Shown: piece by piece, positions 14,273 through 47,724 of the stretch
Layout: each line of letters begins with the position of its first letter
How positions within the stretch are numbered: position 1 is the first letter of the stretch
NCBI RefSeq assembly: GCF_000012965.1
Contig: NC_007575.1
Coordinates: 992,001-1,056,000 of the forward strand
From: Sulfurimonas denitrificans DSM 1251
Lineage (GTDB): Bacteria > Campylobacterota > Campylobacteria > Campylobacterales > Sulfurimonadaceae
DNA length: 64,000 bases
Reading direction: 5' to 3'
Made by a program: the position numbers and the translations under genes
The notes under the pieces: model-generated
What the model was told of the DNA's origin: nothing
The model's input: only the letters and a program-made list of their open reading frames with translations
Database searches by the model: none

Positions 14273-14304
14273 GCGACATAACGGCGACATTGGCTAGCTA
14301 TACT
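14273..14304 (+). promoter_or_regulatory. GCGACA tandem promoter 1 (kinase pair)
   Basis: GCGACA at 14273-14278 and 14284-14289 (11 bp apart) is followed after exactly 9 bp by the -10 hexamer TATACT (14299-14304); the ATG of the kinase gene follows 49 nt later. The upstream repeat takes the place of a -35. This architecture is shared with four other promoters of the island. The 20 bp spanning both repeats are identical to promoter 2. Confidence 0.8.
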
Positions 14305-14353
14305 TCTTTTTACTTTTTAAAAACAAAGTGAAAAATAATGCCGATGAGCGTAT

Positions 14354-16585
14354 ATGCAAAAAAACATATCTCTAAAGTCACTTATCTACAAAAGCTACCT
14401 ATCTAGTGCACTTGTTCCTGTATTTGCTATAGAGCTTGTGCTTCTTCTTTTATACTTTGGAGTAACTTTTTTTATATCTCAAAAATCGCAAGATATACTT
14501 CTTGATGAAGCAAAGTTAGCGCTTAACGAAATAGCCAGCAGAGAGGCTGGACATATAGATATGCTCTTTAGTGAAGTTAAAAGAGATATGGCTATATTAA
14601 AGCGAGACCATGAAAGATTTTTTACTTTAAATGAGTGTAGTTCCCAAAAAGTTAAAGCAGAGTTTGGCAGACATAAAAATGGCGCATTATATAAACTAGT
14701 AGATAATGGCGGTTCATCCATATATGCGCCTAAAGATTTTGATGCAACACCAAAAAATCTAAAAAAGATAGAGTGCAGTGAATTTATAGACCCATTAATG
14801 AAATCTATAGTAGATACAAACCCAATTATTACACAAGCATATATAAATACCTATGATAAGATAAACAGACTCTATCCATTTATGAGTGATGCTGCTACTC
14901 AATATGGCGCAGAGCTTGATGCTACAAGTTATAACTTTTATTATCTAGCAGATGCAAACTACAATCCAAAAAGAAAAGATGTTTGGACAAGTGCATATCT
15001 TGATCCAGCAGGGCAAGGGTGGATGATATCAATTATTGCACCAATATACAATGGTAATTTTTTAGAGGGAGTCAGTGGGCTCGATGTTACGATAGATTCA
15101 CTTATAAAAAATGTTCTCTCACTTGATATACCATGGAGTGGTAGTGCGTTTTTGATAGATAAGGATGGAACAATCATAGCTATGCCAAAGCGTATTGAGG
15201 AGCTGTTTTCCATAAAAGAGCTAAAGGGGCATACATACACAAGCACTATATCTACAACCATAGAAAAACCAAAAGAGTTCAATCTGCTTAAGAACTCTAA
15301 AGAAATGGAGAGTTTTTTTAAAAAAGCAACTCCCATAGATAAATTTACTATAAAAGGTGCTAACTACATCATCTCTCAAAAAATTATACCTCAGACAAAT
15401 TGGCGTTTGATGGTAGTTGTAGATGAATTTATCATATATAGACCCATTATGGAGTTTAAATCTCAAGCACAGATTATAGGTTATGTAGTTATTGCACTTA
15501 TGATATTTTTTTATCTCATTTTTTTTATATATCTTATGAGAAAATCTAACGCTATTTCAGAATATATAGCAAAGCCAATAAATGAGCTCTCAACTCTAAC
15601 AAGCAATCTTGGCACTAAGCCAAATACTCAGCTAAGAGAGACAGGTAATATAGAAGAAATTTATAAACTAGTGCAAAACTTCAATACGCTTAGCAATGAG
15701 TTGGATGATAGAACAAATGCTTACATAGAGTCTCAGATGCGTGAGAAAATGAAAGAAAAAGAGGCTCTCTCAGCTTATAGAGAGGGGCTTTTAGAGAGTG
15801 CTGGAGGATATTTGCATAATGTTGGAAACTCTTTGGCAATTCTTGATTCAAAGCTTTTTGTACTAAAGAGCAGTGCATCATCTCTGCAAAAGAGTGAGCT
15901 TGGATTTAACAAAGTCATAGAGATGGTGCAAAATTCTCATGCAAAGGGTGAGGAGAAAGTTTCTATGGAGGTTTTTTTGGAGGCTTTTAAAGAAGCTCTT
16001 AGTGATGATATAACATCTGAGATACTTGATGTAGTTGATGGCATAGAGAGAGTTAAAAACCATGCTTCAGAGATGATAAAAGATCAGCAAGACAGACTTG
16101 CAAACAGAGATGGGAGTGAGAATTACGTATATAGTTTTTCACTAAATAAAATGCTTAGCGAACTTATAGAGGATTACTCTTTGGAGTTTTTTAGATTTAA
16201 CATATCTATAAAAGTTCACGAAAATGATGAAGTGGTAGTGCAAATAATGAAATATAGGCTTCAAAGCGGAGTAGCAAATGTTATTAAAAATGCTATAGAG
16301 TCTATATCATTATCTAAAAACAGTGGCAATGGCATTATAGATATAACTATAAAAAGAGAGAAAAATATGGTGCTTTTGATAGTTCAAGATAATGGCTGTG
16401 GAGTTGCAAGAGATGATATAGATAAGATATTTGGCTTTGGATATACGACTAAAAAAGGGGGTAGCGGTTTTGGGCTACATACGCTAAATAATTTTTTAAA
16501 CAGTATAGGCGGAACGATAAATATAACAAATAATGAAAGTGAAAATGGAGCAACTTTAATGATGGAGATACCGATAAATGAGTAG
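14354..16585 (+). CDS. Membrane histidine kinase with dCache sensor domain
   Basis: This 743-aa sensor kinase has a membrane segment (about 16-40), a large periplasmic dCache-type domain (about 45-370; W-x-S-x-Y and GVSGLDVTIDSL motifs), a second membrane segment (about 374-398), a HAMP-like linker, a coiled coil, and a kinase core. The phospho-acceptor is probably H488 in a Y-L-H-N-V-G-N box, a different kinase group from the IAHQWRQP kinases downstream. The ATPase motifs are intact (NVIKNAIES, DNGCG, GSGFGLH). It overlaps the next gene by 8 bp and lies after promoter 1, so the two form a kinase plus response-regulator operon. The ligand is probably a small organic molecule. Confidence 0.88.
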   Translation: MQKNISLKSLIYKSYLSSALVPVFAIELVLLLLYFGVTFFISQKSQDILLDEAKLALNEIASREAGHIDMLFSEVKRDMAILKRDHERFFTLNECSSQKVKAEFGRHKNGALYKLVDNGGSSIYAPKDFDATPKNLKKIECSEFIDPLMKSIVDTNPIITQAYINTYDKINRLYPFMSDAATQYGAELDATSYNFYYLADANYNPKRKDVWTSAYLDPAGQGWMISIIAPIYNGNFLEGVSGLDVTIDSLIKNVLSLDIPWSGSAFLIDKDGTIIAMPKRIEELFSIKELKGHTYTSTISTTIEKPKEFNLLKNSKEMESFFKKATPIDKFTIKGANYIISQKIIPQTNWRLMVVVDEFIIYRPIMEFKSQAQIIGYVVIALMIFFYLIFFIYLMRKSNAISEYIAKPINELSTLTSNLGTKPNTQLRETGNIEEIYKLVQNFNTLSNELDDRTNAYIESQMREKMKEKEALSAYREGLLESAGGYLHNVGNSLAILDSKLFVLKSSASSLQKSELGFNKVIEMVQNSHAKGEEKVSMEVFLEAFKEALSDDITSEILDVVDGIERVKNHASEMIKDQQDRLANRDGSENYVYSFSLNKMLSELIEDYSLEFFRFNISIKVHENDEVVVQIMKYRLQSGVANVIKNAIESISLSKNSGNGIIDITIKREKNMVLLIVQDNGCGVARDDIDKIFGFGYTTKKGGSGFGLHTLNNFLNSIGGTINITNNESENGATLMMEIPINE

Positions 16586-18248
16586 TTTTAAAATATTTGC
16601 TATTGATGATGAGATACATATATTAGATTTTTATAAAAATATATTAAAGCAAAAAGAGAGCAAGGCTAAGAATTTTTTTGATTCTCTTGAATCAAAAGAA
16701 GAGATAAAAGATGAGTTTGATTTATATACTTTTGAGACTCCAAAAGAGTATCTTATGGCTCTTCAAGAGTGTTATGAAAATGAAGACAAGGTTGCAGTTT
16801 CCATCATAGATATGCGTCTGCCTCAGATGCATGGATTAGAAGTTGCAAAAAGAGCTAGAGAAATTGATGAAAATATGAACATAATTATAGTAACTGCATT
16901 TGCAGATTTTTCAGTTGATGAGATACTTGGAAGAATAGAGAAAAATGTTTACTATCTTCATAAACCATTTAGACATGATGAACTGCTTGTGCTTGTGACA
17001 ACAGGAGTTAGAAACTATCAAACAAACTGTAGTTTTAGTGAGGTTATGAATGATATAGCCATAGATGCAACACAAGATGGTTTTTGGGACTGGAACCCTA
17101 TTACAAATGAAGTTTACTACTCGCCAAAATGGAAGCAGATGCTTGGGTATAGTGAAGAAGAGATAACAAATACTTTAGAAGAGTGGTCAAGCAGAGTTCA
17201 TCCTGATGATATACAAGACGTGATGCAAACTCTAAAAATACATCTTGAGAAAAAAAATGATTACTATATATCTGAGCATAGAATTCGTGCAAAAAATGGT
17301 AATTATGTCTGGATACTTGACAGAGGAAAAGCATCATTTGATGCAGATGCAAAACCTATAAGGGTTACTGGATTTCATTCAGATATAACAAAAAGAAAAG
17401 AGTTAGAAGAGCAACTACTAAGCGGTAACAAAGAGTTAGAATCAAAACTAGAGACAATAATAAACTCACAGATGAAGCTAGAAAATACAAATGCTCAATT
17501 AGAAGAGCGTTTAATGCAAGAGATACAAAAAAGTAAAGAACAAGAAAATATGCTTCTAAAACATGTGCGTCAAGCTGCTATGGGTGAGATGATAAGCATG
17601 ATAGCGCATCAATGGAGACAACCTATATCGACTATCTCCATTGTAGCTGATAATATTCTTATGGGTATGATGCTAGGAGATGAAACCAAAGAGGATACTG
17701 AGGAGGGTTTATCTGTAATAAAAAAACAGGTCGTGCATCTATCGCAAACAATAGATGATTTTAGAAGTTTTTTCGCTCCCAATAAATCAAAGGAGCATAC
17801 ATTTATCAAAGATGCTATAGATTCTGCTTTATCTATTATAGAGGCAAACCTTAAAAACTCAAATATAAAAATTATTAAGATGTTAGAAGATACAAAAGCT
17901 ATAAATATATATAAAAATGAGATGATACAAGTTTTCTTAAATATACTAAAAAATGCTAATGACGCACTACTCTATGCAGAGATTGAAAATCCAACTATAA
18001 CAATACGTTCTTATGAAGATGAGAGTGGAATTACTGTAAGTATAATGGATAATGGAGATGGGATAAAAGAGGAGATAATAGATAAAATCTTTGAGTCCTA
18101 CTTTACTACAAAAAATGAAAAAAATGGAACAGGACTTGGGCTGTATATGGTAAAAACTATAGTTGAGCAACGATGTCAAGGAACTATAATAGCTAAAAAT
18201 AGTGATGATGGTGGTGCAGAGTTTGTCATAAGATTTACATTTTTTTAA
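16578..18248 (+). CDS. REC-PAS-histidine kinase hybrid
   Basis: This 556-aa soluble protein has an N-terminal REC domain (residues about 5-140, D78 in IIDMRLP), a PAS domain (about 155-280, WDWNP start and HSDITKRKE end), a coiled coil and a kinase core with H344 in IAHQWRQP, ATPase N-box KNANDAL, DNGDG and NGTGLGLY. It is probably phosphorylated through REC by the overlapping upstream kinase and then controls its own kinase, acting as a relay node. It has no DNA-binding domain. Second gene behind promoter 1. Confidence 0.9.
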   Translation: MSSFKIFAIDDEIHILDFYKNILKQKESKAKNFFDSLESKEEIKDEFDLYTFETPKEYLMALQECYENEDKVAVSIIDMRLPQMHGLEVAKRAREIDENMNIIIVTAFADFSVDEILGRIEKNVYYLHKPFRHDELLVLVTTGVRNYQTNCSFSEVMNDIAIDATQDGFWDWNPITNEVYYSPKWKQMLGYSEEEITNTLEEWSSRVHPDDIQDVMQTLKIHLEKKNDYYISEHRIRAKNGNYVWILDRGKASFDADAKPIRVTGFHSDITKRKELEEQLLSGNKELESKLETIINSQMKLENTNAQLEERLMQEIQKSKEQENMLLKHVRQAAMGEMISMIAHQWRQPISTISIVADNILMGMMLGDETKEDTEEGLSVIKKQVVHLSQTIDDFRSFFAPNKSKEHTFIKDAIDSALSIIEANLKNSNIKIIKMLEDTKAINIYKNEMIQVFLNILKNANDALLYAEIENPTITIRSYEDESGITVSIMDNGDGIKEEIIDKIFESYFTTKNEKNGTGLGLYMVKTIVEQRCQGTIIAKNSDDGGAEFVIRFTFF

Positions 18249-18369: not shown

Positions 18370-21300
18370 ATGAAAACTATTGATATCTTCCCTTGGAGTA
18401 ATCATTTTAACACAGAGATAAAAATTATTGATGAGCAACATAAAAAACTCGTTATTATACTAAATCGTCTAGCTACTCATATAGCTTATAGCGATACAGA
18501 CGATGATTTAAATGATATCTTTGATGAACTTATAGACTATACCTCTTATCACTTTGAAACAGAAGAGGCGATTTGGCATAAATATCTGCCAAATGATGAA
18601 CTAGATGCGTCTCATAAAGTTGTTCATAAAACATTTGTAGATACTGTTTTAAGACTAAAAAATGAGCAAAACAGAGAGTCGCTTAGTGAGTTGGCTCAAG
18701 AGGCTTTAGGGTTTTTGGCTAGTTGGTTGGCTTCACATATTTTAGAGACAGATCGTCACATGGCATATATTGTATTTGCCATAGAAGATGGTCTTGATAT
18801 AGCGTCTGCAAAAAAATATGCAAATGAGCGCATGAGCGGTTCAACTCGTTTGTTAATCGATATCATACTCTCCATATACAGCACTCTCTCTTCAAATACG
18901 CTAGATTTGATGCGTGAGCTTAAAATGCGTGAAAATTTAAAAGAAAAGCTTATTTATCAAGAGCATTACCAGCGCGCACTAATAGATAATTTTCCATTTT
19001 TAGTATGGCTAAAAGATGAGAAGAGCCGTTTTTTAGCACTAAATCAACCTATGGCAAAAGCTTGTGGTTTTGATTTGCCTGAAGAGGTTGTGGGAAAAAC
19101 AGATTATGATATTTGGCCCAAAGAGTTGGCAAAATCTTACCGCAAAGATGATGCTAATGTATTGGCCTCTGGAGAGTCAAAAACAGTAGAAGAGCCTATA
19201 GTCACAAAAGATGGAGTAATCTGGTCGGAGACATATAAATCACCTGTAAAAGTAGATGGAAAGGTTATCGGTACTGTTGGTTTTTCAAGAAATATTACCT
19301 CTAGAAAAGAGCTTGAGAAAAATCTTCTCCAAGAGAGAGACCTTTTTAAACACTACTTAAATACTGTTGAAGCAATTATTGTCTCCTTAGATAAAGAGGG
19401 TCACATTAACCTTATAAACCGCAAAGGGTGCGAAATCTTAGGCTATAGTGAAGAAGAACTCATAGGTAAACTTTGGTTTGATTTTTGTTTAGAGCAACCT
19501 GAGGGGATGAAAATAATCTATCCACTATTTCTTAAAATAGTCTCTGGCGGATTAGAGGGCAGTGAATATTTTGAAAACAAGATAGTTAGCAAATCAAAGA
19601 AAAAGTATCTTATTGCATGGCATAACGCTTATCTTTTAGATGATGATAAGAACATTATCGGTACTTTGAGTTCTGGTGAAGATATCACACTACTAAAAGA
19701 GCAACAAAAGCATTTAGAACACATAGCTCACTATGATACGCTAACTAGCCTTCCAAATAGAACACTGCTCTCAGATAGACTAAAACAAGCAATGCTTCAA
19801 ACTCAAAGAGACAAGCTTTTTTCAGCTGTTATCTATCTTGATTTGGATGGGTTTAAAGAGGTTAATGACACTTATGGTCATAATCATGGGGACATTTTAC
19901 TAAAAGTTTTATCAAGCAGAATCAAACAAATTTTAAGAGATGTAGATACTATTGCCCGTTTAGGCGGGGATGAATTTGTAATCGTTTTATATGATATAAA
20001 AAATAAAGAAGATTGTTTCCCAATGCTTAATCGGATTTTGAGCACTATAGCAAAACCTGTTAAATCAAAAGAGATTACAATGCAAGTATCCGCTAGTGCA
20101 GGTGTCTCATTTTATAGCTATGAGGATATCATAGATGCAGATCAGCTTCTTCGTCAAGCAGATCAAGCGATGTATCAAGCAAAACTATCTGGTAAAAATC
20201 GTTTTCATATTTTTGATGTTCAACTCGATAAACATATACGTAGTCATCATGAGAGTCTTGAAGCTATAGAAGTGGCTATAAAAAATAGAGAGTTTGTTAT
20301 GTACTATCAACCAAAGGTTAATATGCGCAGTGGCAAAATTTTAGGTCTAGAAGCGCTTGTTAGGTGGGAGCATCCTCTGCATGGATTACTTTCTCCTGCT
20401 CATTTTTTGCCTACTATTGAAAACCATAAGCTATCCGTAGAACTTGGCAATCTCATCATCAATACCGTTATGGGACAAATTCAAAAATGGAAACAAGAGG
20501 GGCATAACTTAGTAGTTAGCATCAACATAAGTCCGATGCAAATTCAAGAAGCCAACTTCACTGCAAAAATAATTAATCTTTTAAAAAATTATCCTGAAGT
20601 TAAAACAAGCGATTTTGAATTTGAAATACTTGAGAGTAGCGCACTTGAGGATATTAACCATGTCTCGCGTATTATGAGAGAGTGCAACAAAATAGGTATA
20701 TCTTTTTTACTAGATGATTTTGGTACAGGATATTCCTCTTTGACCTATCTTAAAAATCTTCCTGCTAAACAACTAAAGATAGATCAAACTTTTGTAAGAG
20801 ATATGCTTGAAGATACAGATGATATGGCAATCTTAGAGGGTATCATTGGTTTAGCCAATGCATTTCGTCGTGATGTTATTTCTGAGGGTGTTGAGAATAT
20901 TGAGCAAGGAAATATGCTTCTAAGACTTGGCTGTGAAGAGGCTCAAGGCTATTTTATAGCAAAACCAATGCCTTCTCAAGAAGTTATGAAATGGATAAAT
21001 CAGTGGACTCCACCAGCACAGTGGCAAAATATAGTAAAAATCCCTCGTGATGACATGCCTCTTCTTTACGCAATTACAGAACATAAAATATGGATTAAAG
21101 ATGTCATGGCGTACCTCAAAACAGACACAGTAAAATATCCCAAACTAGATTATAAAGAGTGCCGTTTTGGCACATGGCTATATACTCAAGGAGTGCAGCG
21201 TTATGGAAAAAAAGATGGATTTAAAGAGGTAGTGAGTCAACATAAAAAAGTACATGAAAATATCAATGAAATAATAAAGCAACATAAGAGCCAAACATTA

Positions 21301-21384
21301 AAAAACATAGATGCCTCAATAGAAGAGATAAAAAACTATCATAACGATTTTCTAAAAGTCTTTAACAAACTTATCATAGTTTAA
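18370..21384 (+). CDS. Haemerythrin-PAS-PAS-GGDEF-EAL-CZB fusion
   Basis: This 1004-aa cytoplasmic protein combines an N-terminal bacteriohaemerythrin domain (about 1-135; DEQH H24, H61-x3-E65, H82-x3-H86, H-x4-D), two PAS domains (about 195-315 and 325-445), a GGDEF domain (intact GGDEF at 532-536 with RxxD inhibitory site), an EAL domain (E661-A-L, DDFGTGYSS, all metal ligands present) and a C-terminal zinc-binding CZB domain (C931 in CRFGTWLY plus His). Both c-di-GMP synthesis and breakdown are possible. Haemerythrin should sense O2 and CZB zinc or oxidants. No GCGACA promoter precedes it; the 121-bp upstream gap holds nothing obvious. Confidence 0.92.
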   Translation: MKTIDIFPWSNHFNTEIKIIDEQHKKLVIILNRLATHIAYSDTDDDLNDIFDELIDYTSYHFETEEAIWHKYLPNDELDASHKVVHKTFVDTVLRLKNEQNRESLSELAQEALGFLASWLASHILETDRHMAYIVFAIEDGLDIASAKKYANERMSGSTRLLIDIILSIYSTLSSNTLDLMRELKMRENLKEKLIYQEHYQRALIDNFPFLVWLKDEKSRFLALNQPMAKACGFDLPEEVVGKTDYDIWPKELAKSYRKDDANVLASGESKTVEEPIVTKDGVIWSETYKSPVKVDGKVIGTVGFSRNITSRKELEKNLLQERDLFKHYLNTVEAIIVSLDKEGHINLINRKGCEILGYSEEELIGKLWFDFCLEQPEGMKIIYPLFLKIVSGGLEGSEYFENKIVSKSKKKYLIAWHNAYLLDDDKNIIGTLSSGEDITLLKEQQKHLEHIAHYDTLTSLPNRTLLSDRLKQAMLQTQRDKLFSAVIYLDLDGFKEVNDTYGHNHGDILLKVLSSRIKQILRDVDTIARLGGDEFVIVLYDIKNKEDCFPMLNRILSTIAKPVKSKEITMQVSASAGVSFYSYEDIIDADQLLRQADQAMYQAKLSGKNRFHIFDVQLDKHIRSHHESLEAIEVAIKNREFVMYYQPKVNMRSGKILGLEALVRWEHPLHGLLSPAHFLPTIENHKLSVELGNLIINTVMGQIQKWKQEGHNLVVSINISPMQIQEANFTAKIINLLKNYPEVKTSDFEFEILESSALEDINHVSRIMRECNKIGISFLLDDFGTGYSSLTYLKNLPAKQLKIDQTFVRDMLEDTDDMAILEGIIGLANAFRRDVISEGVENIEQGNMLLRLGCEEAQGYFIAKPMPSQEVMKWINQWTPPAQWQNIVKIPRDDMPLLYAITEHKIWIKDVMAYLKTDTVKYPKLDYKECRFGTWLYTQGVQRYGKKDGFKEVVSQHKKVHENINEIIKQHKSQTLKNIDASIEEIKNYHNDFLKVFNKLIIV

Positions 21385-21470: not shown

Positions 21471-21502
21471 GCGACATAACGGCGACACTAGAAGACTACT
21501 AT
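21471..21502 (+). promoter_or_regulatory. GCGACA tandem promoter 2 (che operon)
   Basis: GCGACA at 21471-21476 and 21482-21487 is followed after 9 bp by TACTAT (21497-21502) as -10 and, 41 nt on, the ATG at 21544. This is the only promoter-like structure in the 160-bp gap before the 12-gene chemosensory operon. Confidence 0.8.
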
Positions 21503-21543
21503 TACATACTTAAAAAATATTTCCCAAAGAGATAGGATTGAAA

Positions 21544-22497
21544 ATGAGTATTGTAAAAGAGTTAAAAGATTTTGCAAAAAATCTTAGTGTCATTATAGTT
21601 GAAGACGACAAGGCGCTAAATGAAGAGCTAGTTGGAGTTACAGAACTATTTTTTAAAAGAGTCTTTTTTGCCTATAACGGTGTAGAAGCACTCAGTATAT
21701 ACAAAAACAACAACATTGATATTGTCATAACAGATATAACTATGCCAAAAATGGATGGTGTAGTTCTTAGTAGAAATCTAAAGCAGATAAATCCAAACCA
21801 AGACATAGTAGTTATCTCTGCGCATAGAGATATTGAGTATCTTGTTAAACTTGTAGATATAGGAATAAAACAGCTTATCTACAAACCTTTTGATCATCAG
21901 GAGTTACTTTATAGACTTCTTAGAGTATGTGAAGACAAGGTTCTCTCAAATAAGATGGATGAGTATAAAGAGGATTGCTCATCTCTTTTAAACACCACAA
22001 CAGTTGCAAATAATAGCATACAGAATAAAAAAGCAATTTATAAAAATCAAAATAGAACTATTTTACATCTAAATTCTGAGATGGAACAAGATATTGAGTA
22101 TCTCTTAGAGCTAAGAGATGATTTAGAAAATTTAGTTAATGAGCTTCATTATGGGGTTGAGGTAAGTGTGATAAATGGGATTAGCTCTGTTCTTTCAAAA
22201 ATATACACTCTTCTCTCACAAATAGGGGCTACTACAAAAATATCTGTAGTTATATTTGAACTTGCAAACTTCTTAGAGAGTATCAACTTTGAGCTATTGA
22301 GTGATGAGCAAAAATCAAAACTAGAAATGATGGAGTTTATTTATGATGATATTGCAAAATTTGTAGATTTGATATTTGTAAAAAGGGAAGTACAAGATAC
22401 TTCATATTTAGAGGACTCTTTGCGTTCATCTCTTAGTCAATTAAAACAGAGTGTTTTTAATGACTTTTTAGTTGAAGAAGAGTTCGAGTTATTTTAA
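21544..22497 (+). CDS. REC protein with novel helical C-terminal domain (copy 1)
   Basis: This 317-aa protein has an intact REC domain (residues about 13-135; EDD, D64 in ITDITMP, Ser of VVISAH and Lys of YKPF), a linker, and a 150-residue helical domain that I do not recognise, ending in an acidic-aromatic tail EEEFELF. I chose ATG 21544 over TTG 21538 because GATAGGA sits immediately before the TTG. It is followed by a paralogue with the same architecture and the same last residues, which shows tandem duplication. As the first gene of the che operon it may receive phosphate from CheA. Confidence 0.85.
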   Translation: MSIVKELKDFAKNLSVIIVEDDKALNEELVGVTELFFKRVFFAYNGVEALSIYKNNNIDIVITDITMPKMDGVVLSRNLKQINPNQDIVVISAHRDIEYLVKLVDIGIKQLIYKPFDHQELLYRLLRVCEDKVLSNKMDEYKEDCSSLLNTTTVANNSIQNKKAIYKNQNRTILHLNSEMEQDIEYLLELRDDLENLVNELHYGVEVSVINGISSVLSKIYTLLSQIGATTKISVVIFELANFLESINFELLSDEQKSKLEMMEFIYDDIAKFVDLIFVKREVQDTSYLEDSLRSSLSQLKQSVFNDFLVEEEFELF

Positions 22498-22507
22498 GGA
22501 GAGGGGA

Positions 22508-23494: not shown

Positions 23495-23532
23495 TCAAAT
23501 CACTAAACAAAATTAAAAAAAAAGGATAAAAA

Positions 23533-23919
23533 ATGTTAAAAAAAGTAGTGTTTGTGGATGATAGTAAAGCAGTTTTAGCTTCTGTTGAATTGGCAGTTGA
23601 AGAGCTTGTGGCAAATGGAAGTATATCTTTTGACACATACTCAAATCCAGCTGAATTTTTAGAAAAAGTTACATCTGGAAGTGTGGATTATGACCTTTTG
23701 TTTACGGATATAAATATGCCACAGATGAGTGGACTTGAGCTATCAAAAAAATTAAAAGATATTGCGTCAATTAGACAAAAACCAATCTTGGCTTTAACGA
23801 CTGAAAACTCAACAGAGATTAAACAGACTGGAAAAGATATAGGTATAGCTGGATGGGTTGTTAAACCGTTTAGCAATGACAAAATTGTCTTAGCAATTAA
23901 AAAAGTTTTAGGCATATAA
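23533..23919 (+). CDS. cheY: CheY-like single-domain response regulator
   Basis: This 128-aa stand-alone REC has the acidic pair VDD (8-10), phospho-acceptor D59 in FTDINMP, a Thr in ALTTEN and the Lys of VKPF. It follows the two REC fusions in the che operon and precedes cheW by 1 bp. It may act as the diffusible output to the flagellar motor, or control another machine if this is an alternative chemosensory system. AAAGGA lies a few nt before the ATG. Confidence 0.88.
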   Translation: MLKKVVFVDDSKAVLASVELAVEELVANGSISFDTYSNPAEFLEKVTSGSVDYDLLFTDINMPQMSGLELSKKLKDIASIRQKPILALTTENSTEIKQTGKDIGIAGWVVKPFSNDKIVLAIKKVLGI

Positions 23920-23920
23920 G

Positions 23921-24430: not shown

Positions 24431-24446
24431 AAATTAGGAGAAAAAA

Positions 24447-26054: not shown

Positions 26055-26056
26055 TC

Positions 26057-26320: not shown

Positions 26321-26323
26321 GAG

Positions 26324-29241: not shown

Positions 29242-29253
29242 AAGGAGATAGTG

Positions 29254-30138: not shown

Positions 30139-30140
30139 AA

Positions 30141-34441: not shown

Positions 34442-34450
34442 AGGCTTTAC

Positions 34451-37554: not shown

Positions 37555-39717
37555 ATGTTAAGCAGCATCTCCATCAAGTTGAAAATGGCACTTATTGTCA
37601 TCATCCCAGTTTTTGTTATACTCATATCATTGGGTATGGATAGTTATAGAAGTTACAATGAAGTGGCTATTTTATCTCAAATCCAAGAGATGGTCTCTTT
37701 TACTCAAAAGAGCAGTTCTCTTGTTCATAATCTTCAAAAAGAGCGTGGTGCTTCTGCTGGGTTTATCAGCTCAAAAGGTGAGGTATTTTCATCAGAACTT
37801 AACTCTATCCGCAGAGATACAGATGAAAAATATGATGAGTTAAAAAAGTTTTACTCATCTATGAATAAAGAGACTCACTCCTCTGCACTGCAAGATAAAA
37901 TGTCAAAGGCTATGCAAAGTCTTTTAGAGCTTCAGAGCATAAGAGAGAGTGTCTCTTCTCTTGGCGTTGTCGTTGGAATTCCTGTTGCATACTATACAAA
38001 AGTAAACAACAGCTTCATCTCCTCAATAGAAGAGATTGCAAAAATATCACATAATGCACAGATGAATAATATGATAAGTTCATTTGTAAATTTTTTAGCT
38101 TCAAAAGAGAGAGCAGGGCTTGAGAGAGCTGTTTTATCATCAACTTTTTCAAGAGACAATTTTGCAGATGGCTTTTATGAGAAGTTTATAACACTTCTTA
38201 GTGAGCAAAATACCTACATGAATAAATTTCTATTTTCTGCACCTCAAGATATGATTGAGTTTTATACTCAAACAATGAGTGCAACAGAGATTCAAGAGGT
38301 AGAGAAGATGCGAAAAGTTGCACTCTCAAAGCCTAATGGCGGATTTGACATAGATGCTACTTACTGGTTTAAAACAATAACTTCAAAGATAAATCTTCTA
38401 AAGAGTGTTGAAGACAAGTTCTCTGCGCAACTTGAGTCAAATGTGGTTGCATTAAAGAGAAGTGCTTCAAATTATTTGATGCTATCTTTACTTGTAAATA
38501 GTTTGATAGTTCTTTTCATAGTTGGGTTTAGTTTCTATGTTTCAAATAATCTAGTAAGCAGAATCAAGCGTTTTAAAGATGAGATTGATGAGATTATAAC
38601 TACAAAAGATTTCTCAAAACATCTTACACAAAATGGAAACGATGAGATAAGCTTTATACAAGAGTCGGTAAATCACCTAGCAGATGTTGTAAATCAATCT
38701 ATGCAAGAAGCAAAACTCTCTCTTGAGGATTCGCAAAAACACTATATGGAAAATGAGAAACAACTAGAAGCCAACAGACTAACATTAGGGCTTACAGAGC
38801 TTTTAAACAGAGGTGCAATAGATGGTGCCTCAGAGGTTCAGTCTGGCATATTAGAAACTATGGAAGCGTTGAATCAGATAAACAAAAAGAACGCACAAAC
38901 AGAAGAAGTTGTTGCAAATGTTCAAGAGTCAACACATAAAATGAGTAGCTCATTGAGCAATATATCTCAAAAGATGAACTCTTCAAAAGAGAATGCAGAT
39001 CAGTTAAACAGTAGCGTTATTGAGATATCAAATGTAATAGCACTCATTAAAGATATAAGTGATCAAACAAATCTACTAGCACTAAATGCAGCAATAGAAG
39101 CAGCTCGTGCAGGTGAACATGGAAGAGGGTTTGCAGTTGTTGCAGATGAAGTGCGCAAACTAGCTGAGAGAACACAAAGAGCTACAAATGAAGTAGAGTT
39201 AAACATAAACCTCTTAAAACAAAACAGCTCTTCAATGCAGGAGTTCTCAGAGCAGATGAATGTAGAAGTTTCTACATCAGTAGAGGTTCTAGAGCTTTTT
39301 ATGAGCAGTTTGAACTCATTAGTTACAAGTGCACAACAGATTCAGCATAGCAACAAAGAGGTCTCAAATGCGATGTTTATAAATCTAGCAAAACTAGATC
39401 ATATAGTCTTTAAGTTTACAGGGTATGATGCAGTCTTTAAAGATGACCGTAACTTTAAGTTCTCAGAGCATACAGCATGCCGTTTTGGAAAGTGGTATAT
39501 CGGTGATGCTAAAGAGATATTTGGAAAAACCACATCTTATGCTAAAATAGACCCAATTCATAAAGTTGTGCACGATAGAGTAAGATCAGTTCCTGCGTAT
39601 ATAGAAGATGGGGCAGTTAAGAACTCTACAAAAATTATTTTAGCATTTAGCGAAGCAGAGAATGCTTCAAAAGATTTGTTCAAAATATTAAATACAATGG
39701 CGCATGAGATAAAATAA
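37555..39717 (+). CDS. MCP with NIT sensor and CZB domain (copy A)
   Basis: This 720-aa MCP has a membrane segment (about 8-28), a periplasmic NIT-type helical sensor (about 35-305; motif [11 protein letters not shown] typical of nitrate/nitrite sensing domains), a second membrane segment (about 308-330), a HAMP, a signalling domain and a CZB domain (C642 in CRFGKWY, HKVVHDR). It has the same length as the MCP at 47923 and shares several exact nucleotide blocks with it. NIT suggests nitrate or nitrite taxis, fitting a denitrifier. AAGGG lies about 7 nt before the ATG. Confidence 0.93.
38949..39239 (+). repeat. 291-bp block identical to 49317-49607
   Basis: The signalling-tip coding DNA of this MCP is identical, base for base, to the paralogue at 49317-49607, including third positions. 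The mismatch density rises sharply on both sides. Further identical blocks at the same 10,368-bp offset are 38092-38168 and 37704-37760. Explained by recent duplication or gene conversion. Confidence 0.9.
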
Positions 39718-39729
39718 AAAGGAGTTAAA

Positions 39730-41424
39730 ATGGATCTAAATCTAATCAAACAGATACGTCTTTTTGGAAGCTCTATAACAGTTTTGTATGTAGAAGATGA
39801 AGAGAGTATCCGCAAACAGGTAAGAAAGACCCTTCTTAATCTTTTTGACAGTGTGGACGTTGCTATAGATGGCGTAGATGCACTAAGGATGCATAAAGAG
39901 AAGCACTATGATTTGATTATTACAGATCTGAAGATGCCAAATATGGATGGGGTTGAACTTTGTAAAAAACTAGTAGAGATAAATAAGGATCAATACATAG
40001 TTCTAATATCTGCCCATAAAGAATCAGATGAAGTTTTAAAACTCTTAAACATCGGAGTATCTGGCTTTTTGCTAAAGCCTATCGATATGCCAATAATGCT
40101 TGAAAAACTCCACTCTGTTGTAAAAAATATATATGCAAACAAGATGATGAAGTATCACTATGAACAGATTGAAAAAGATATTTTGCAAAATACAGCCTCA
40201 TCTCAAGAGGAACTTGAGAACAGAGATTCACTAACCTCTTTGTATAACCAAAAATATCTTCTAAAAATTATTAACAATGATGTGATGAAGTGGGCTATTC
40301 TTATAAATATAAATGATTTTAAACTCATAAATGATTACTACTCTTATGCTCATGGAAATCATCTTCTTTTTCAAATTGCAGAGCTCTTAAGAGAGGAGGC
40401 GAAAGAGCATGGTTATGGGCTCTTTAGACTCTCAAATGATGAATTTATACTCCTTAGAGATGAAGCTCCAAGTAGCTGTGAGGAGATAAAAGAGGAGGCA
40501 ATACAGATATCTCGTACACTAGATAAGAGGAGATACACGTTAATTGGAGTAGATAATATCTCTGTTGGTGTAACTATGGGAATTGCGAATAGTGAGCATC
40601 ATCTGCTTGAGAATCTTCACCGTTCATTGATACATGCTAAAAGATATGGTTTGCGTTATGCTCTTCATAGAGATGTTCCTGATGATAGAGATAGTGTTAA
40701 AAATATCATAGAGGTAAAAGAGCTTTTAAAAAACTCAATTGAAAAAGATTTAATTATTCCTGTCTATCAGCCTATTGTTATGAAAGATAAGAAGTTTAAA
40801 TATGAAGTTCTTATGCGCATAAGAAATTCGCTTGAGGGTGGTGAACTGCTCTCTCCTGCGCTATTTTTAGAGATAGCAAAAAATCATAGCTACTATAATG
40901 AAATCTCTCAAATGGTAATATTCAAAGCAATAGATAAGATGTTAGCAGATAAAGATGTAGTTTTTTCTATAAACTTCTCGTATGCAGATATGAAAAATAA
41001 ACAACTGCTTCAAAAATTAGAGGATAGTATAGTTAAAAATGCTCTTGGAGATAGACTTGTATTTGAGATTGTTGAGAGTGACCAGCTAGATAATATCGCT
41101 ATTGTTCAAGGTTTTATTGCACGATTTAAAGAGTTTGGTGTACAAATAGCAATAGATGATTTTGGAAGCGGTTACTCTAACTTTGCTCATATATTTTTAC
41201 TAAAACCAGATTTTATAAAGATTGATGCTTCTTTGATAAAAGAGATGCTAAACAACTCTGATATGCATATATTTGTAGAGACAATAATTACATTTGCGCA
41301 TAAGTTAGGAGTTGAAGTAGTAGCAGAACATGTAAGTTCAAAAGAGCTTTATGATGCTCTCTTTGAGCTTGGTATAGATGCTATGCAAGGGTACTACTTA
41401 GGCTATCCAAGTGAGATAATTTAG
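39730..41424 (+). CDS. REC-degenerate GGDEF-EAL c-di-GMP phosphodiesterase
   Basis: This 564-aa protein has a REC domain (D66 in ITDLKMP), a GGDEF-like domain whose motif reads S-N-D-E-F (235-239), so cyclase activity is unlikely, and an EAL domain (E359-V-L, DDFGSGYSN, Lys of FIKID, Glu of VAEH) with the catalytic residues in place. Phosphorylation of REC probably controls c-di-GMP breakdown, linking the array to motility or biofilm state. AAGGAG six nt before ATG; 12 bp after the MCP. Confidence 0.9.
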   Translation: MDLNLIKQIRLFGSSITVLYVEDEESIRKQVRKTLLNLFDSVDVAIDGVDALRMHKEKHYDLIITDLKMPNMDGVELCKKLVEINKDQYIVLISAHKESDEVLKLLNIGVSGFLLKPIDMPIMLEKLHSVVKNIYANKMMKYHYEQIEKDILQNTASSQEELENRDSLTSLYNQKYLLKIINNDVMKWAILININDFKLINDYYSYAHGNHLLFQIAELLREEAKEHGYGLFRLSNDEFILLRDEAPSSCEEIKEEAIQISRTLDKRRYTLIGVDNISVGVTMGIANSEHHLLENLHRSLIHAKRYGLRYALHRDVPDDRDSVKNIIEVKELLKNSIEKDLIIPVYQPIVMKDKKFKYEVLMRIRNSLEGGELLSPALFLEIAKNHSYYNEISQMVIFKAIDKMLADKDVVFSINFSYADMKNKQLLQKLEDSIVKNALGDRLVFEIVESDQLDNIAIVQGFIARFKEFGVQIAIDDFGSGYSNFAHIFLLKPDFIKIDASLIKEMLNNSDMHIFVETIITFAHKLGVEVVAEHVSSKELYDALFELGIDAMQGYYLGYPSEII

Positions 41425-41437
41425 CAATGGAAAGTAG

Positions 41438-42622
41438 ATGAATAGTAGCTATTTAGAGATTTCATACGAGTGCTTGAGTTCTATAGGTAACTCTTTTGAA
41501 ATAGAGAGCATGATGAGTGAAGTTGTTATAACTTTTTATAGAGAAACAAAAGCTCTCTATTGTGGTTACTATGAAGATGAGAGTGTAGATATACCCATGG
41601 TCTCTTTTGGACAAGATGAGGAGCTTGCGTATGATGTTTCAAGGGGTGAGTGTATTTTAAAAGATACTCAAGACTATTTTTTAATAATTTTATCGCTTAA
41701 GAAGGGGTATTTGAAACTTCTCTATATGAAAGATATTGATATAGAAAATATATATAATTTGTTATGTAAGTTTAAGAGAAAAATCAACTTTGCTCTAAGC
41801 GCTTGTGAGGGTGTAAAAGAGCTAGAAGAGCTAAATGAAAAACTTGAAGAGAGAGTCTTTGAATCTGTAAAAAAGATAAGAGAACATGAAGAGATGCTTC
41901 TCTTGCAGTCAAAGAGTGCGATTATGGGTGAGATGTTAGAGATGATTGCTCATCAGTGGAGACAGCCACTAACTTCAATAGGTATGATTTCAAATAATAT
42001 GCTCTTTAACATAATTATTAGCGAAGAGAATGAACTAGATAAAGAGATTTTTAAAAATGAGTTAGAGGATATAAATAAGCAAATAAAATATCTCTCAAGC
42101 ACCATAGATGATTTTAGAGGTTTTTTCAAAGAGAGCAAAGAAAAAGAGAAGGTCTTGATAGAAGATATTTTACAAAAGAGTATCTCTTTGACAAAAAAAC
42201 AGTTAGAGCAAAACTCTATTGAGATAGAAGTAATAAATACATGTAGTAATTTAGTGATAAATACATATAAAAATGAGTTGACTCAAGTGCTTTTAAATCT
42301 TATGTATAACGCAAAAGATGCATTTGAATCGCAAGATATAAGAGATAAAAAGATAATTTTAGAGTGTTTTTTAAGAGACGAAAATCTAATTATAGAGTTA
42401 AAAGATAATGCAGGTGGAATAGATAAAGATATTATGACAAAGATATTTCAACCATATTTCTCAACAAAAAAGGAGAAAAATGGCACAGGGCTTGGGCTAT
42501 ATATGTCAAGAATCATACTACAAAGACATCTAGCAGCTGATATTTCTGTAAGAAATGAAAATGGGGGAGCAGTATTTAGTATCTCTATGCCCATTAAAGA
42601 TGAAATAAAAGTGCGGAGTTGA
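41438..42622 (+). CDS. Soluble histidine kinase with unassigned N-terminal domain
   Basis: This 394-aa kinase has a 125-residue N-terminal region of unknown fold (possibly GAF-like), a coiled coil, and a kinase core with H172 in IAHQWRQP and intact ATPase motifs (NLMYNAKDAF, DNAGG, NGTGLGLY). There is no membrane segment. It follows the EAL gene by 13 bp and precedes the next kinase by 3 bp, so it is in the promoter-4 operon. Confidence 0.85.
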   Translation: MNSSYLEISYECLSSIGNSFEIESMMSEVVITFYRETKALYCGYYEDESVDIPMVSFGQDEELAYDVSRGECILKDTQDYFLIILSLKKGYLKLLYMKDIDIENIYNLLCKFKRKINFALSACEGVKELEELNEKLEERVFESVKKIREHEEMLLLQSKSAIMGEMLEMIAHQWRQPLTSIGMISNNMLFNIIISEENELDKEIFKNELEDINKQIKYLSSTIDDFRGFFKESKEKEKVLIEDILQKSISLTKKQLEQNSIEIEVINTCSNLVINTYKNELTQVLLNLMYNAKDAFESQDIRDKKIILECFLRDENLIIELKDNAGGIDKDIMTKIFQPYFSTKKEKNGTGLGLYMSRIILQRHLAADISVRNENGGAVFSISMPIKDEIKVRS

Positions 42623-42625
42623 ATT

Positions 42626-44089
42626 TTGAGAGATTATGAGAGACTAAAATCTATTACAATATTGTATGTTGAAGATAGCAAGTTTTTATCTAAAATGACT
42701 GCCTACTCTATTCGTGATTATTTCAATAAAATATATATAGCACATGATGGGCAAGAGGGTCTTAGACTTCTTAGAGAGCATAATGCCGAAATAGACATAG
42801 TTGTAACTGACTTAATTATGCCAATACTAGATGGCAAGCAGATGATAAAGCAGATTAGGGAGGGCGGATGCAGTGTTCCTATCATAGTAACAACTGGATA
42901 TGATGAGTACATGGAGCGAGAAAAGATGCTTGAGTTCTCAATAGGCGCATTTTTATCTAAACCCATAGACAAGCATAAGCTTCTTGATAGCATAGATGAT
43001 ACCATAGATGCACTCTTTATAAAGAGAGAGTTAGCAACCAAGAAAGCAATGATAGATAATGACATAATCTACTCAGAGAGTGATAAAAATGGCATCATTA
43101 GATATGTCTCTAAACCTTTTGAGCGTATAAGCGGATACTCAAAAGAGGAGCTCTTAGGAAATACACATGCTATTTTAAAAAGCAAAGAGACATCTGAATC
43201 AACATATAAAGAGATGTGGAAAAATCTAAGCTCATATAAGCAGTGGCAAGGAGAGATTACAAATAGAAAAAAAGATGGCTCTTTGTATAGTGTAAATATG
43301 ATTATCTCCCCTATGTACTTTAGAAATAAATTAATTGGTTATAGCGCAACAAGCCTTGATACAACAGAGCTAAAGAGAACCTCCGCAGAACTTCAAGCAA
43401 AATCAAAACATGCAGCCTTAGGAGAGATGATAGCTATGATAGCTCATCAGTGGAGGCAGCCCATAACTTCAATAGGTATGATTGCAAACAATTTACAGTT
43501 TGATATGTTGATGGATGAGCTTGATATAAATGTTTTAGAGGAGAATTTAAAAATTATAGACTCACATGTAAAACATCTCTCAAGCACCATAGATGTTTTT
43601 AAAAACTTTCTTCAAGAGAGTAAAACAAAGGAGAGTATCGTTATGCAAAATATAATAAAAGAAGCACTTCTAGTTCTTAGAGAAGATGCTAGAGATACAA
43701 AAATAAAATATGATGTAGATGAAAAATGTGCTTCCATAGAGTTTGATACTTTTAAAGATGAGTTAGTACAAGCAATCATAAATATAATAATAAATTCTAA
43801 AGATGCTTTAATTCAAAACAATATAGAAGAGCCAAAAATTAAAATTATCTGTGCTAAAGATAGTGATTTTATAACTATTTCAATTTCAGATAATGGAGGT
43901 GGTATAGACGATGATGTGTTACCAAAGATATTTACTCCCTACTTTTCAACAAAAAATGAAAAAAACGGAACGGGGCTTGGGCTATATATGACAAAAACAA
44001 TAGTTGAAGAGAATCTAGATGGAGAGCTTAGTGTTTCAAATATAGACAATGGAGCCATATTTACAATCAAGCTTCCATATAAGAGCTAA
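42626..44089 (+). CDS. REC-PAS-histidine kinase hybrid
   Basis: This 487-aa protein has a REC domain (D62 in VTDLIMP, Lys of SKPI), a PAS domain (about 145-255; typical YVSKPFERISGYSKEELLG), and a kinase core with H274 in IAHQWRQP and intact N and G boxes. The start is TTG 42626 with CGGAG seven nt upstream; no ATG fits. Domain order matches the kinase at 16578 and the two are probably paralogues. Confidence 0.88.
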   Translation: MRDYERLKSITILYVEDSKFLSKMTAYSIRDYFNKIYIAHDGQEGLRLLREHNAEIDIVVTDLIMPILDGKQMIKQIREGGCSVPIIVTTGYDEYMEREKMLEFSIGAFLSKPIDKHKLLDSIDDTIDALFIKRELATKKAMIDNDIIYSESDKNGIIRYVSKPFERISGYSKEELLGNTHAILKSKETSESTYKEMWKNLSSYKQWQGEITNRKKDGSLYSVNMIISPMYFRNKLIGYSATSLDTTELKRTSAELQAKSKHAALGEMIAMIAHQWRQPITSIGMIANNLQFDMLMDELDINVLEENLKIIDSHVKHLSSTIDVFKNFLQESKTKESIVMQNIIKEALLVLREDARDTKIKYDVDEKCASIEFDTFKDELVQAIINIIINSKDALIQNNIEEPKIKIICAKDSDFITISISDNGGGIDDDVLPKIFTPYFSTKNEKNGTGLGLYMTKTIVEENLDGELSVSNIDNGAIFTIKLPYKS

Positions 44090-44102
44090 AAAGGATAAGA
44101 AA

Positions 44103-45365
44103 ATGGATAAGGAACAAGTAAAAAAGCTTCGTGCAATCTGTAGAGATATTTCAGTGCTTTATGTAGAGGATGATATAAGTATATCAGCTCAGCTAGAAAA
44201 ACTCCTTAGAAAAATTTTTAATAATGTGGAAGTTGAAAAAAATGGACTCTCTGGAGTTCAAAGCTATACTAAAAATAGACAAGACATAGTAATAACAGAT
44301 ATCTCTATGCCTGTTATGGATGGTATTGAGATGTGTAAGAGAATAAAACTTATAAACAGTGAGCAAAATATTTTAGTAACCTCTGCACATAATGATGCAG
44401 AGTATCTTGTCAAACTAATAGATATTGGTGTTGATAAATTTATAACAAAACCCATAGATATGGGTAGTTTTTTATCAAATATCTCAAAAATTGCCATAAG
44501 TATATATAGAGAAAAGAGAGAAACAGTTTTAGAAAGTAGGATAAAAGCTCAACAAAATCTACAAAAAGAGCTTTTAAATGGCATCATATTTCCACTGGCA
44601 TATTTTGATGAAGGTGAGATTGTTTATGCAAATAGCAGTTTTAAGAAACAATTTTTTACAGAGATAGATGCAGGTGATTTTAGCAGATTTAGATTGGGGT
44701 ACCTTTTTGAAAATAAAAAGTACGTTTCAATGAGCAATAGTGAACTAGTACAAGAGATAAGTAACTCCGATGACAAGACATACCTAGTAATGGATGTAAA
44801 TAAAAAAATTGTCAAAAAATATAGTATAAGTGTTACGAAATTTCAAAATGCTAAAGGTTGTCTTCTAAGTTTTGTAAATCTTAATGCTCTAAATGAAGAG
44901 ATAAACAGATTTAGTGAACAGGTGGACTACTTTCCAAAAAGAGAGTCATTCTCTCAAGCACTCTTAGAGCCTAAAAAATCTACAAAAGAGAATTATGAGA
45001 TTTTTTGTGTTGGCTTAAAAAATACTAAAGGATTTATAGATAAATATGGTGGTGCTAAAATGCACTCTATCTTTAACTCTCTTGCAAAGAGTCTTAAAAA
45101 AGAGTTTTCTGCTGAAGTTCAAAGTAAAGAGTTGTCAATATATCTTTTTGAGACAAACAGATATATTTTTTTAGTGGAGAAAAATCTTGACAATAGCGCT
45201 ATAGATAAAAGGTTAAGTGATTTTGGAAAAAAGTACAATTACGCTTTTGGAAGTGGATTGCCACTTGAATTAAGTTTTATAAAAGAGAACATTAAAAACA
45301 CTCAAAGTATAGGTGATATTTTAGAGAATACAGAGGGGATGTTATATACACTCTCAACCATATAA
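44103..45365 (+). CDS. Response regulator with degenerate C-terminal domains
   Basis: I start this protein at ATG 44103 (AAGGA upstream), giving 420 aa; an earlier in-frame ATG (44049) lies inside the previous gene. A REC domain (D66 in ITDISMP, Lys of TKPI) is followed by a PAS-like stretch (about 150-270) and a region with a faint GGDEF-like pattern but no motif. The output is unclear. It is the last gene of the promoter-4 operon and ends in a perfect palindrome. Confidence 0.75.
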   Translation: MDKEQVKKLRAICRDISVLYVEDDISISAQLEKLLRKIFNNVEVEKNGLSGVQSYTKNRQDIVITDISMPVMDGIEMCKRIKLINSEQNILVTSAHNDAEYLVKLIDIGVDKFITKPIDMGSFLSNISKIAISIYREKRETVLESRIKAQQNLQKELLNGIIFPLAYFDEGEIVYANSSFKKQFFTEIDAGDFSRFRLGYLFENKKYVSMSNSELVQEISNSDDKTYLVMDVNKKIVKKYSISVTKFQNAKGCLLSFVNLNALNEEINRFSEQVDYFPKRESFSQALLEPKKSTKENYEIFCVGLKNTKGFIDKYGGAKMHSIFNSLAKSLKKEFSAEVQSKELSIYLFETNRYIFLVEKNLDNSAIDKRLSDFGKKYNYAFGSGLPLELSFIKENIKNTQSIGDILENTEGMLYTLSTI

Positions 45366-45392: not shown

Positions 45393-47351
45393 CTACGTTT
45401 TAAACATCTCAAGTTTAACATGTAGCTCATCAGTCATAACATTTAGATGTTCAGCAGCTGCGGCAATCTCTTCTACATTTCTTGCGTTTTGAGATGACAT
45501 GTCGTTTATGTCGCTCACTTGAGAGACTATAGAATCAACATCTATTTTAGTTTTTTCAAAGTCATTTACAGTTTTATCAGTGGCAGTTACAGCGCCTTTT
45601 ACTATAGAGACACTGTTGTTTATCATCTCTTCCACATTTGAGGCGCTACTTGCCAACTCTTGTATCTCTTTAGAGTTAGAGTCCATCTGAGTGCTTACCT
45701 CTATGATTCCATGCACGATTATGTTTATCGTTGCGTTTATCTCACTAAGGCTTTTTTGCGTTCTCTCTGCTAGTTTGCGTACTTCATCTGCTACAACCGC
45801 AAATCCACGTCCATGCTCACCTGCACGAGCAGCTTCAATAGCAGCATTAAGGGCAAGAAGATTTGTCTGATCAGCTATATCGCTTATGATGTCAAGTATG
45901 CTCTTTACTTCATTTGCTTCATGAGAGAGTGTCTGCATTCTATGTGATAATTCAACTTCAACCTCTGCCGAGGATTGAACTTTATTTGCAAGAGAGACTA
46001 TCTCATCCCTTGCTTTTGCAAGAGTTTCATTTGCTTTTAGTATCTCCTCTTTACTTTTAATGGCGTCCTTAGTTGCTGCCGTTATCTCATCTTTAATATG
46101 GGTTGCTTTTTTTTCTGCCTCATTTATCACTGCAACACTTTTTTCTACGTTTGTGCCTACTCTTAGTGATGTAGTTGAGAGCTCATGTGATATGGAAGCA
46201 TTTTCACTTGATGACAATTTAGAGGTCTCTATAAGTTCTCTAATAGTTTTTATGAGAGTGTTAAAACTTGATGCCATCTCAGAGAGTTCTTGAGGAGAGT
46301 TTTCATCCATTTTTATAGTTAAATCTCGACTGTCTCCTATGCCCAAGAGAGTATTTTTAAAGATATCTATAGGTTTTACTATAGATATCTTTATGAGATG
46401 TAAAATAAAAAAGATAAATAAAATAGTACAAATCACCAATCCCGCTAAAAGTATTATAATATTATTGGATGCGTCTTCTATCTTCTTGTTTATGGATGTA
46501 TATACACTCTTATAGATCTCAATTTCTACTTCTCTAAGAAGCTCTATTGTTGAAGTTACTGTAGAGAACCACATATTTGAATCTATGCCAAAATCCCCCT
46601 CAATACCTCTCTTCTTTGCTTCTTCTATAATGTCAAATGTTTTTTTAACAACTTCTCCTCTAAAGATACGCTCATAAGAGTCTCTTAACTCTTTTGAGGC
46701 AAGAGCCTCAAATTTTTTCTTATTTCCCTTTAAAATAAGTTCTCTGCCAATTAGCATAGAAAACTCTTTTATCTCCATCTTATTTGTAGAAAAAACTCTA
46801 TTTAAGAGTGCTCTAATTTGTCCTAATGACTCTTTGGTAAAGACTAGATGGGTATATGTTTGAATTGTATTTCTATTATCTTTATCATCTATAAGAGAGG
46901 GAATAATTGTAACTGTGTCAATTAAAGCGGCAACTATTTGTGTATAGTATGCTCCAACATCCAAACCACTTATGCTCAAAGAGTCTATGGCATCTCTTTT
47001 TTGTTTGAGCTCATTCAAGTTGTTCAACATGGAGATATCGCTTTTGGTTTTTTCATAAGTAACTCTTATGTTATTTAATGCTTCATCACTATTTTGGCGG
47101 CTACTTTGTAAGATGCTAGAGCCATTTTGCCCTTTACTCGCTAAAAATCCTGCACTCACTCCTCTTTCTATTTGCAGATAGTGAACTGCTCTACTTAGAG
47201 ACTCTGCTTCTATAATACGCTCTTTTGTCACCTCAAGGTTTTGTTTTATGCTTATATCATAAAAGATTCTGCCTACTGCGAGAGCCAAGACCGCTACTAT
47301 TGGAATTGAGATTAAAATAATAAATCTTAATTTTATGCTTAATTTTTGCAT
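45393..47351 (-). CDS. MCP with NIT sensor, no CZB domain
   Basis: This 652-aa MCP has a membrane segment (about 9-28), a NIT-like periplasmic domain (motif [11 protein letters not shown]), a second membrane segment (about 303-325), a HAMP and a signalling domain ([20 protein letters not shown] tip), and ends soon after the signalling helices. AAGGAG lies ten nt before the ATG. Its promoter is the minus-strand GCGACA site at 47693-47724, which leaves an unusually long leader of about 340 nt. It is on the opposite strand to its neighbours. Confidence 0.92.
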
Positions 47352-47692
47352 ATTTCTTTACTCCTTATTTAAAATAAAATGTGTCTGTTTGTGCTTGAAG
47401 AAAAAAAATGGAAGAAATTTATATGGAATTGGAAGAAAAGAGGATACATTTTGCTAAGTTTTTTAAAGTTTTTTGAAGAGGGTTGTTTTTAATGTTTTTT
47501 ATTAGTTTTAGCATGTAATTAGTAATTATAATGAGTGAAATTAAATATTTATAATAATTTCTATCATTTATAAGCTGACCATATTTCTTTGTTTTATATA
47601 CCATTTAAAATACCTTAAATCTCTCTATTGATTTTATAAATGATAATTAAAGCTAGAAATAGTAGTACAGCTAATAATTAATTTACACGAGA
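47317..47692 (-). other. Long leader of the MCP at 45393-47351
   Basis: From the -10 at 47693-47698 to the MCP start at 47351 is about 341 nt, against 34-49 nt at the other four promoters. The leader contains a 61-codon frame (47419-47604) with a weak AAGG site; it is very basic, has a hydrophobic stretch and is not similar to anything I know. Either a small gene or an untranslated regulatory leader would fit. The coordinates include the first codons of the MCP only as overlap margin. Confidence 0.4.
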
Positions 47693-47724
47693 ATTATATC
47701 GTGCAAGTGTCGCCATTGTGTCGC
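47693..47724 (-). promoter_or_regulatory. GCGACA tandem promoter 5 (minus strand)
   Basis: On the minus strand GCGACA (47724-47719) and GCGACA (47713-47708) are followed after exactly 9 bp by the consensus -10 TATAAT (47698-47693). It is the best -10 of the five, and on the opposite strand, which makes the shared spacing hard to explain by chance or duplication. Confidence 0.82.

Follow-up and report, generated by a model that had tools for sequence, protein, structure and literature searches.

Five GCGACA direct-repeat boxes and a candidate OmpR-type regulator in a chemosensory island of Sulfurimonas denitrificans

The pho box of Escherichia coli is built from TGTCA-type half-sites that follow one another at a step of 11 bp. 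At PhoB-type class II sites, tandem regulator subunits are arranged head-to-tail and overlap the -35 region of the promoter (PMC3348028). A second OmpR-family regulator, PceP of Sulfurospirillum, is involved in tetrachloroethene respiration and binds direct repeats, which at some promoters overlap the -35 box, so as to control several units of one region (PMC7755780). Work published in 2022 on how chemosensory systems evolved in Campylobacterota discusses the flagellar regulators RpoN, FlgRS and FliA, through which transcription control of the motility machinery is tied to the flagellar genes; a text search of it found nothing on how additional chemosensory clusters are switched on (PMC9321776). 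A literature search for the GCGACA-N5-GCGACA box described below found no description of it.

The window analysed here is a stretch of 64,000 nucleotides of the Sulfurimonas denitrificans genome (NC_007575.1, 992,001 to 1,056,000) that contains a chemosensory island with five such boxes, each in front of one of its gene groups. The five boxes are probably the sites of the OmpR-type regulator encoded at 13476-14252, which would activate five chemosensory units in the manner of PhoB with the kinase encoded at 41438-42622 as its likely phosphodonor. What the sequences show directly is the boxes, their uniqueness in the genome, their fixed geometry and their retention next to orthologues of this regulator, and from this binding, phosphorylation by that kinase and activation as opposed to repression are inferred. 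The regulon, which is of the PhoB/OmpR type, is new; its mechanism is already known. For this marine sulfur oxidiser it provides a testable control circuit of a chemosensory island of roughly 30 kb, in which the regulator is named, the site is specific enough for genome scans and a sensor kinase is proposed.

Boxes and genes of the island

The first-pass annotation had reported five sites with exact repeats, spacing and -10 hexamers, and all of them (5/5) proved to be free of mismatches at the coordinates given in Table 1. In the whole genome of 2,201,561 bases (one contig), the exact pair GCGACA-N5-GCGACA occurs five times, each time as one of the island boxes, and the reversed control pattern gives 0 matches. 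Double hexamers are likewise absent (0) from dinucleotide shuffles of the window, and these zeros in shuffles and reversed controls rule out a chance origin. When the pattern with its -10 was searched genome-wide with ≤3 mismatches, the next best places already had 2 mismatches and places with 3 were as frequent as in the reversed control. A wider regulon was not found elsewhere in the genome: outside the five boxes only 4 places have ≤2 mismatches, and 2 of these are GCGATA boxes beside another regulator. The hexamer is present in the window in 10 single copies, every one inside an open reading frame; this had been claimed before, with four coordinates that were 1–3 bases off. Flexible spacing was considered and rejected, as the genomes that carry the module have few pairs with a spacer of N3, N4 or N6; the two N6 pairs of the S. 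denitrificans genome (at 830,523 and 846,705) are identical in their letters and both lie outside the island.

Table 1. Coordinates of the boxes, regulator, kinase and gene groups of the island, and of GCAACA-type boxes in related genomes
Feature	Position	Strand	Sequence or composition	Context
OmpR-type response regulator	13476..14252	+	Receiver and winged helix (Pfam)	Proposed reader of the boxes
Box 1	14273..14304	+	GCGACA-TAACG-GCGACA-N9-TATACT	20 bp 3' of regulator gene; before kinase pair
Kinase pair	14354..18248	+	dCache kinase, REC-PAS kinase	Under box 1
HHE-PAS-GGDEF-EAL-CZB gene	18370..21384			121 bp behind kinase pair
Box 2	21471..21502	+	GCGACA-TAACG-GCGACA-N9-TACTAT	Before che operon
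che operon	21538..33749	+	Two REC proteins, CheY, CheW, MCP, 87-aa ORF, CheA, CheR, kinase, CheD, CheB, kinase	Under box 2
Box 3	33768..33799	+	GCGACA-CTTCT-GCGACA-N9-TACAAT	Before CheZ-like operon
CheZ-like operon	33845..37484	+	CheZ-like phosphatase, MCP with CZB domain, REC-kinase	Under box 3
Box 4	37489..37520	+	GCGACA-AAAAA-GCGACA-N9-TATAGT	Before NIT-MCP/EAL/kinase operon
NIT-MCP/EAL/kinase operon	37555..45365	+	NIT-MCP-CZB, REC-GGDEF-EAL, kinase 41438, REC-PAS-kinase, REC protein	Under box 4
Soluble HisKA histidine kinase	41438..42622	+	Pfam	Under box 4; candidate partner of regulator
NIT-MCP	45393..47351	-		Presumed target of box 5
Box 5	47693..47724	-	GCGACA-CAATG-GCGACA-N9-TATAAT	Upstream of NIT-MCP
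GCAACA-type boxes, G105	L161 3710-3741, 9146-9177			
GCAACA-type boxes, G092	L074 3488-3519, 10983-11014			
GCAACA-type box, G106	L085 4133-4164			
GCAACA-type box, G058	L170 12149-12180		Mixed GCGACA..GCAACA	
GCAACA-type box, G099	L171 12615-12646		Mixed GCGACA..GCAACA	

The earlier proposal that each box heads a gene group fits boxes 1–4, where 35–50 bp separate the end of the -10 from the next open reading frame, and fits box 5 less well, as it lies 342 bp from the start of its MCP; the target gene of box 5 is assigned with less certainty than those of boxes 1–4. The stretch between box 5 and this MCP (47352-47692, about 340 bp) has no obvious gene, only a doubtful 61-aa open reading frame on the minus strand (47419-47604), and could be a long leader or contain an unrecognised small gene. 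Boxes 1 and 2 lie within about 32 nt of near-identical DNA (14256-14289 and 21454-21487) that includes the spacer and the preceding A-rich stretch, so that either may have been copied from the other, possibly through a recent promoter duplication. Boxes 3, 4 and 5 are unlike boxes 1 and 2 in spacer and flanks and have the hexamers and the -10 in common with them.

The CheZ-like protein scores 160 bits against the NCBIfam CheZ model, under its cut-off of 350. A separate promoter may serve the gene at 18370, for which there is one weak candidate 5' of it at 18286. Neither the MCP gene 47923-50085 nor, in S. denitrificans, the regulator gene has a box of its own, and a second cheA (genome position 1,602,387) lies outside the five-box regulon. 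The idea of a single switch for the entire sensory machine is too strong in view of these exceptions, to which the distance of box 5 adds another; the switch very probably controls most of the island, which appears to be one sensory system under common control and only a part of the cell's sensory machinery.

Promoter geometry and candidate mechanism

If the -10 hexamer occupies -12 to -7, half-site 1 covers about -38 to -33 and half-site 2 about -27 to -22. The step of 11 bp and the gap of 9 bp, both present in 5/5 S. denitrificans boxes, match the layout of PhoB/OmpR-type class II sites. Among the matches listed, TAnnnT follows exactly 9 bp on in 17/17 exact N5 pairs from the six genomes with an island context, compared to 1/9 in other genomes. 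Across the 34 sites collected, GACA never varies in half-site 1 and is retained by 33/34 in half-site 2, and the bases of spacer and gap are nearly free; only this freedom is informative, since the sites were gathered with the box pattern itself.

The protein encoded at 13476-14252 has Response_reg (1e-18) and Trans_reg_C (2.5e-9) domains, both above the Pfam cut-offs, and matches in Pfam and the PDB make its fold clear. No other protein of the island has an output domain recognised as DNA-binding; the first-pass annotation had called it the only DNA-binding response regulator in 37 kb. It is not PhoB as defined by the equivalog model TIGR02154 (41.2 bits against a cut-off of 296.2). The receiver residues E39, D40, D88, S116 and K138, which make up the acidic pair, the phospho-acceptor Asp, the Ser/Thr and the Lys typical of such receivers, are invariant across ten orthologues, so the regulator should be phosphorylatable. 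In the proposed mechanism the kinase encoded at 41438-42622 would most likely phosphorylate the regulator, and two phosphorylated subunits would then sit head-to-tail on one face of the helix, one on each GNGACA half-site with a step of 11 bp, and span about -38 to -22. There the regulator would substitute for a -35 element in assisting RNA polymerase, in the manner of PhoB, and the five units would be turned on, with their kinases, the che operon, the CheZ-like protein, the EAL protein and the receptors. As box 4 heads the operon that encodes this kinase, the regulator would promote the synthesis of its own partner, a positive feedback.

The direction of control depends largely on how the -35 region is read. 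A -35-like hexamer 17 bp before the -10 is absent at 5/5 boxes, which makes the promoters look dependent on help and fits class II activation, as proposed earlier, in being compatible with it; it is no proof of it. Promoters of Campylobacterota often have weak -35 elements, and the absence is therefore a soft argument. The same subunits at about -38 to -22 might block RNA polymerase until an altered phosphorylation state frees the promoter, and the boxes do overlap the place of the -35, where repressors also sit. We give such repression a small chance of being correct: the weak -35 elements common in the phylum keep the missing hexamer from deciding against it, but the gap to the -10 is exactly 9 bp in every case, which is typical of activators that touch the polymerase.

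Conservation of box, regulator and kinase

The link between the boxes and the regulator at 13476-14252 was examined in 228 genomes of the family Sulfurimonadaceae. The exact 32-base pattern has 21 matches in 9/228 genomes and 0 for the reversed control, and the relaxed GNGACA form has 39 matches compared to 3 in the control. Orthologues of the regulator are present in nine other Sulfurimonadaceae genomes with 41–77% of identity. When boxes with ≤2 changes are counted, 7/10 orthologues of the regulator have one within 1.5 kb, compared to 0/46 other OmpR-type regulators (Fisher p=5e-7, which is too small because the orthologue loci are related to one another, although the proteins and the bases flanking the boxes have strongly diverged). 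This retention of the box by its orthologues, in contrast to the other OmpR-type regulators, makes the regulator at 13476-14252 the best and a well supported candidate for the reader of the five boxes; the link had previously been argued from proximity.

The place of the box is also mostly kept, next to the gene or at the start of its operon. In G091, G020, G096 and G136 an exact box begins at or just past the end of the regulator gene, the same place as box 1, and in G148 GCGACA..AAGACA is found at the end of that gene. Variant boxes head the operon whose last gene is the regulator in G217 and G093, and the variants GTGACA..GGGACA and ATGACA..GTGACA lie around the regulator gene in G092. No clear box was found beside the regulator in G128, where the contig ends. 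Outside the family, a Halarcobacter (Arcobacteraceae) orthologue with 46% of identity has AGGACA-N5-AAGACA-N9-TATACT just 3' of its gene, and in a tree of 79 regulators this protein and the ten orthologues form one group with 100/99 support. Additionally, in G195 and G115 boxes adjoin the gene of the CheZ-like protein, and boxes head an operon related to the EAL/kinase operon of box 4 in G020, G217, G093 and G106. A lone exact box in G033, a different genus, lies within a predicted open reading frame region (L071 12493-12524) with no close regulator, and is probably a chance match.

The boxes might be read by some other transcription factor, with the regulator at 13476-14252 as a mere neighbour. 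Three genomes have boxes for which no orthologue was found, namely G115 (seven boxes; L058 and L059), G195 (one; L070) and G110 (three; L061–L063); several of these boxes stand before island genes, and a sister regulator of 227 aa, treated below, was likewise not found there. A search of the three genomes with the DNA-binding domain of the regulator returned other clades only, and OmpR-type paralogues with a similar recognition helix are found throughout the family. On the other side, contigs end near some of these boxes or the genomes are incomplete (although G195 is rated 100% complete), and the box tracks the regulator clade through divergent genomes and into an Arcobacteraceae relative, with none near the 46 other OmpR-type regulators. 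Either the regulator lies in assembly gaps of G115, G195 and G110 or another regulator has taken over in them, and for S. denitrificans itself we think a different reader quite improbable. The recognition-helix residues showed no clear correlation, by eye, with C versus T at position 2 of the half-site. That the boxes are functionless copies left by a duplication or a mobile repeat is barely credible, for the near-identity of boxes 1 and 2 over about 32 nt is countered by the three remaining boxes, which have only hexamers and -10 in common, and by the 34 sites of several species that keep the half-sites, the 11-bp step and the 9-bp gap while the spacer bases vary freely.

The regulator encoded at 13476-14252 remains the preferred reader, and the comparison also suggests its sensor. 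A relative of the kinase encoded at 41438-42622 adjoins the regulator orthologue in 8/9 other genomes, the ninth being represented by a contig of 5.8 kb, and since its relatives travel with the regulator orthologues this kinase is the best candidate for the partner. Relatives of the kinase are also present without the regulator in G105, G106, G115 and G195. That the five boxes form one regulon, as the first-pass annotation held, is supported, and this kinase is the most probable sensor, which the annotation had missed. A FIST-domain protein is encoded between regulator and kinase in G136 (L064 10320-11363) and G092 (L073 15216-16268), a hint that the input in these two genomes may be a small metabolite.

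Sister systems and relation to known regulators

Boxes of equal geometry with other half-site letters were found in related genomes. GCAACA-N5-GCAACA-N9-TAnnnT is present in G092, G105 and G106, and mixed GCGACA..GCAACA boxes are present in G058 and G099 (Table 1). Among eleven genomes searched, a second OmpR-type regulator of 227 aa is encoded in precisely these five, with 62–72% of identity to the G106 copy, compared to 42% reached by the next best relatives, and its clade has 100/100 support in the tree of 79 regulators. A GCAACA box (≤1 change) lies within 1.5 kb at 5/5 loci of this regulator and at 0/19 paralogue loci. A GCAACA box stands before the EAL/kinase/MCP module of G105, and the related module in the S. 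denitrificans window is under GCGACA. These regulators therefore appear to follow a pattern in which the geometry is constant and the half-site is spelled in several ways, and this supports the five boxes as regulator sites.

In S. denitrificans two boxes of the form GCGATA-N5-GCGATA-N9-TAnnnT are located on the minus strand at 262,438-262,469 and 266,599-266,630 (L057 6439-6470 and 10600-10631). They flank an OmpR-type regulator gene (L057 6553-7233) and the gene of a protein of 1065 aa that combines solute-binding domains with a C-terminus resembling a kinase, and one of them heads an adhesin-like operon (DUF4347, Ig-like and RTX repeats). They probably belong to a separate small regulon of equal geometry.

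It is possible, as a tentative suggestion, that Campylobacterota harbor a family of sensory-module regulators with a fixed geometry that differ mainly in half-site letters (GNGACA, GCAACA, GCGATA), so that small changes in promoters can move whole chemosensory and kinase modules from the control of one regulator to that of another. If so, each circuit, with a kinase within its own regulon, could serve an accessory chemosensory array as a switch that reinforces itself. The two clades of regulators, alike in geometry and unlike in half-site, also offer a natural system for the question of how winged-helix regulators change the DNA letters that they read.

The candidate regulon resembles the PhoB/pho box system of E. 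coli in its OmpR/PhoB-type regulator and in tandem direct-repeat half-sites that overlap the -35 region, with the subunits head-to-tail (PMC3348028). It differs from it in the half-site, GCGACA in the island and GNGACA over the relatives, and in having chemosensory genes as targets. PceP is likewise an OmpR-family regulator of Campylobacterota that acts through direct repeats on several units of one gene region, although its repeat (CTATW-N17-CTATW) has no sequence link to the GCGACA boxes and its targets are dehalogenation genes (PMC7755780). RpoN, FlgRS and FliA also control the transcription of motility machinery in the same phylum (PMC9321776). Those regulators are tied to the flagellar genes, and the boxes of the island combine a sigma-70-like -10 with a separate OmpR-type regulator at an additional chemosensory island.
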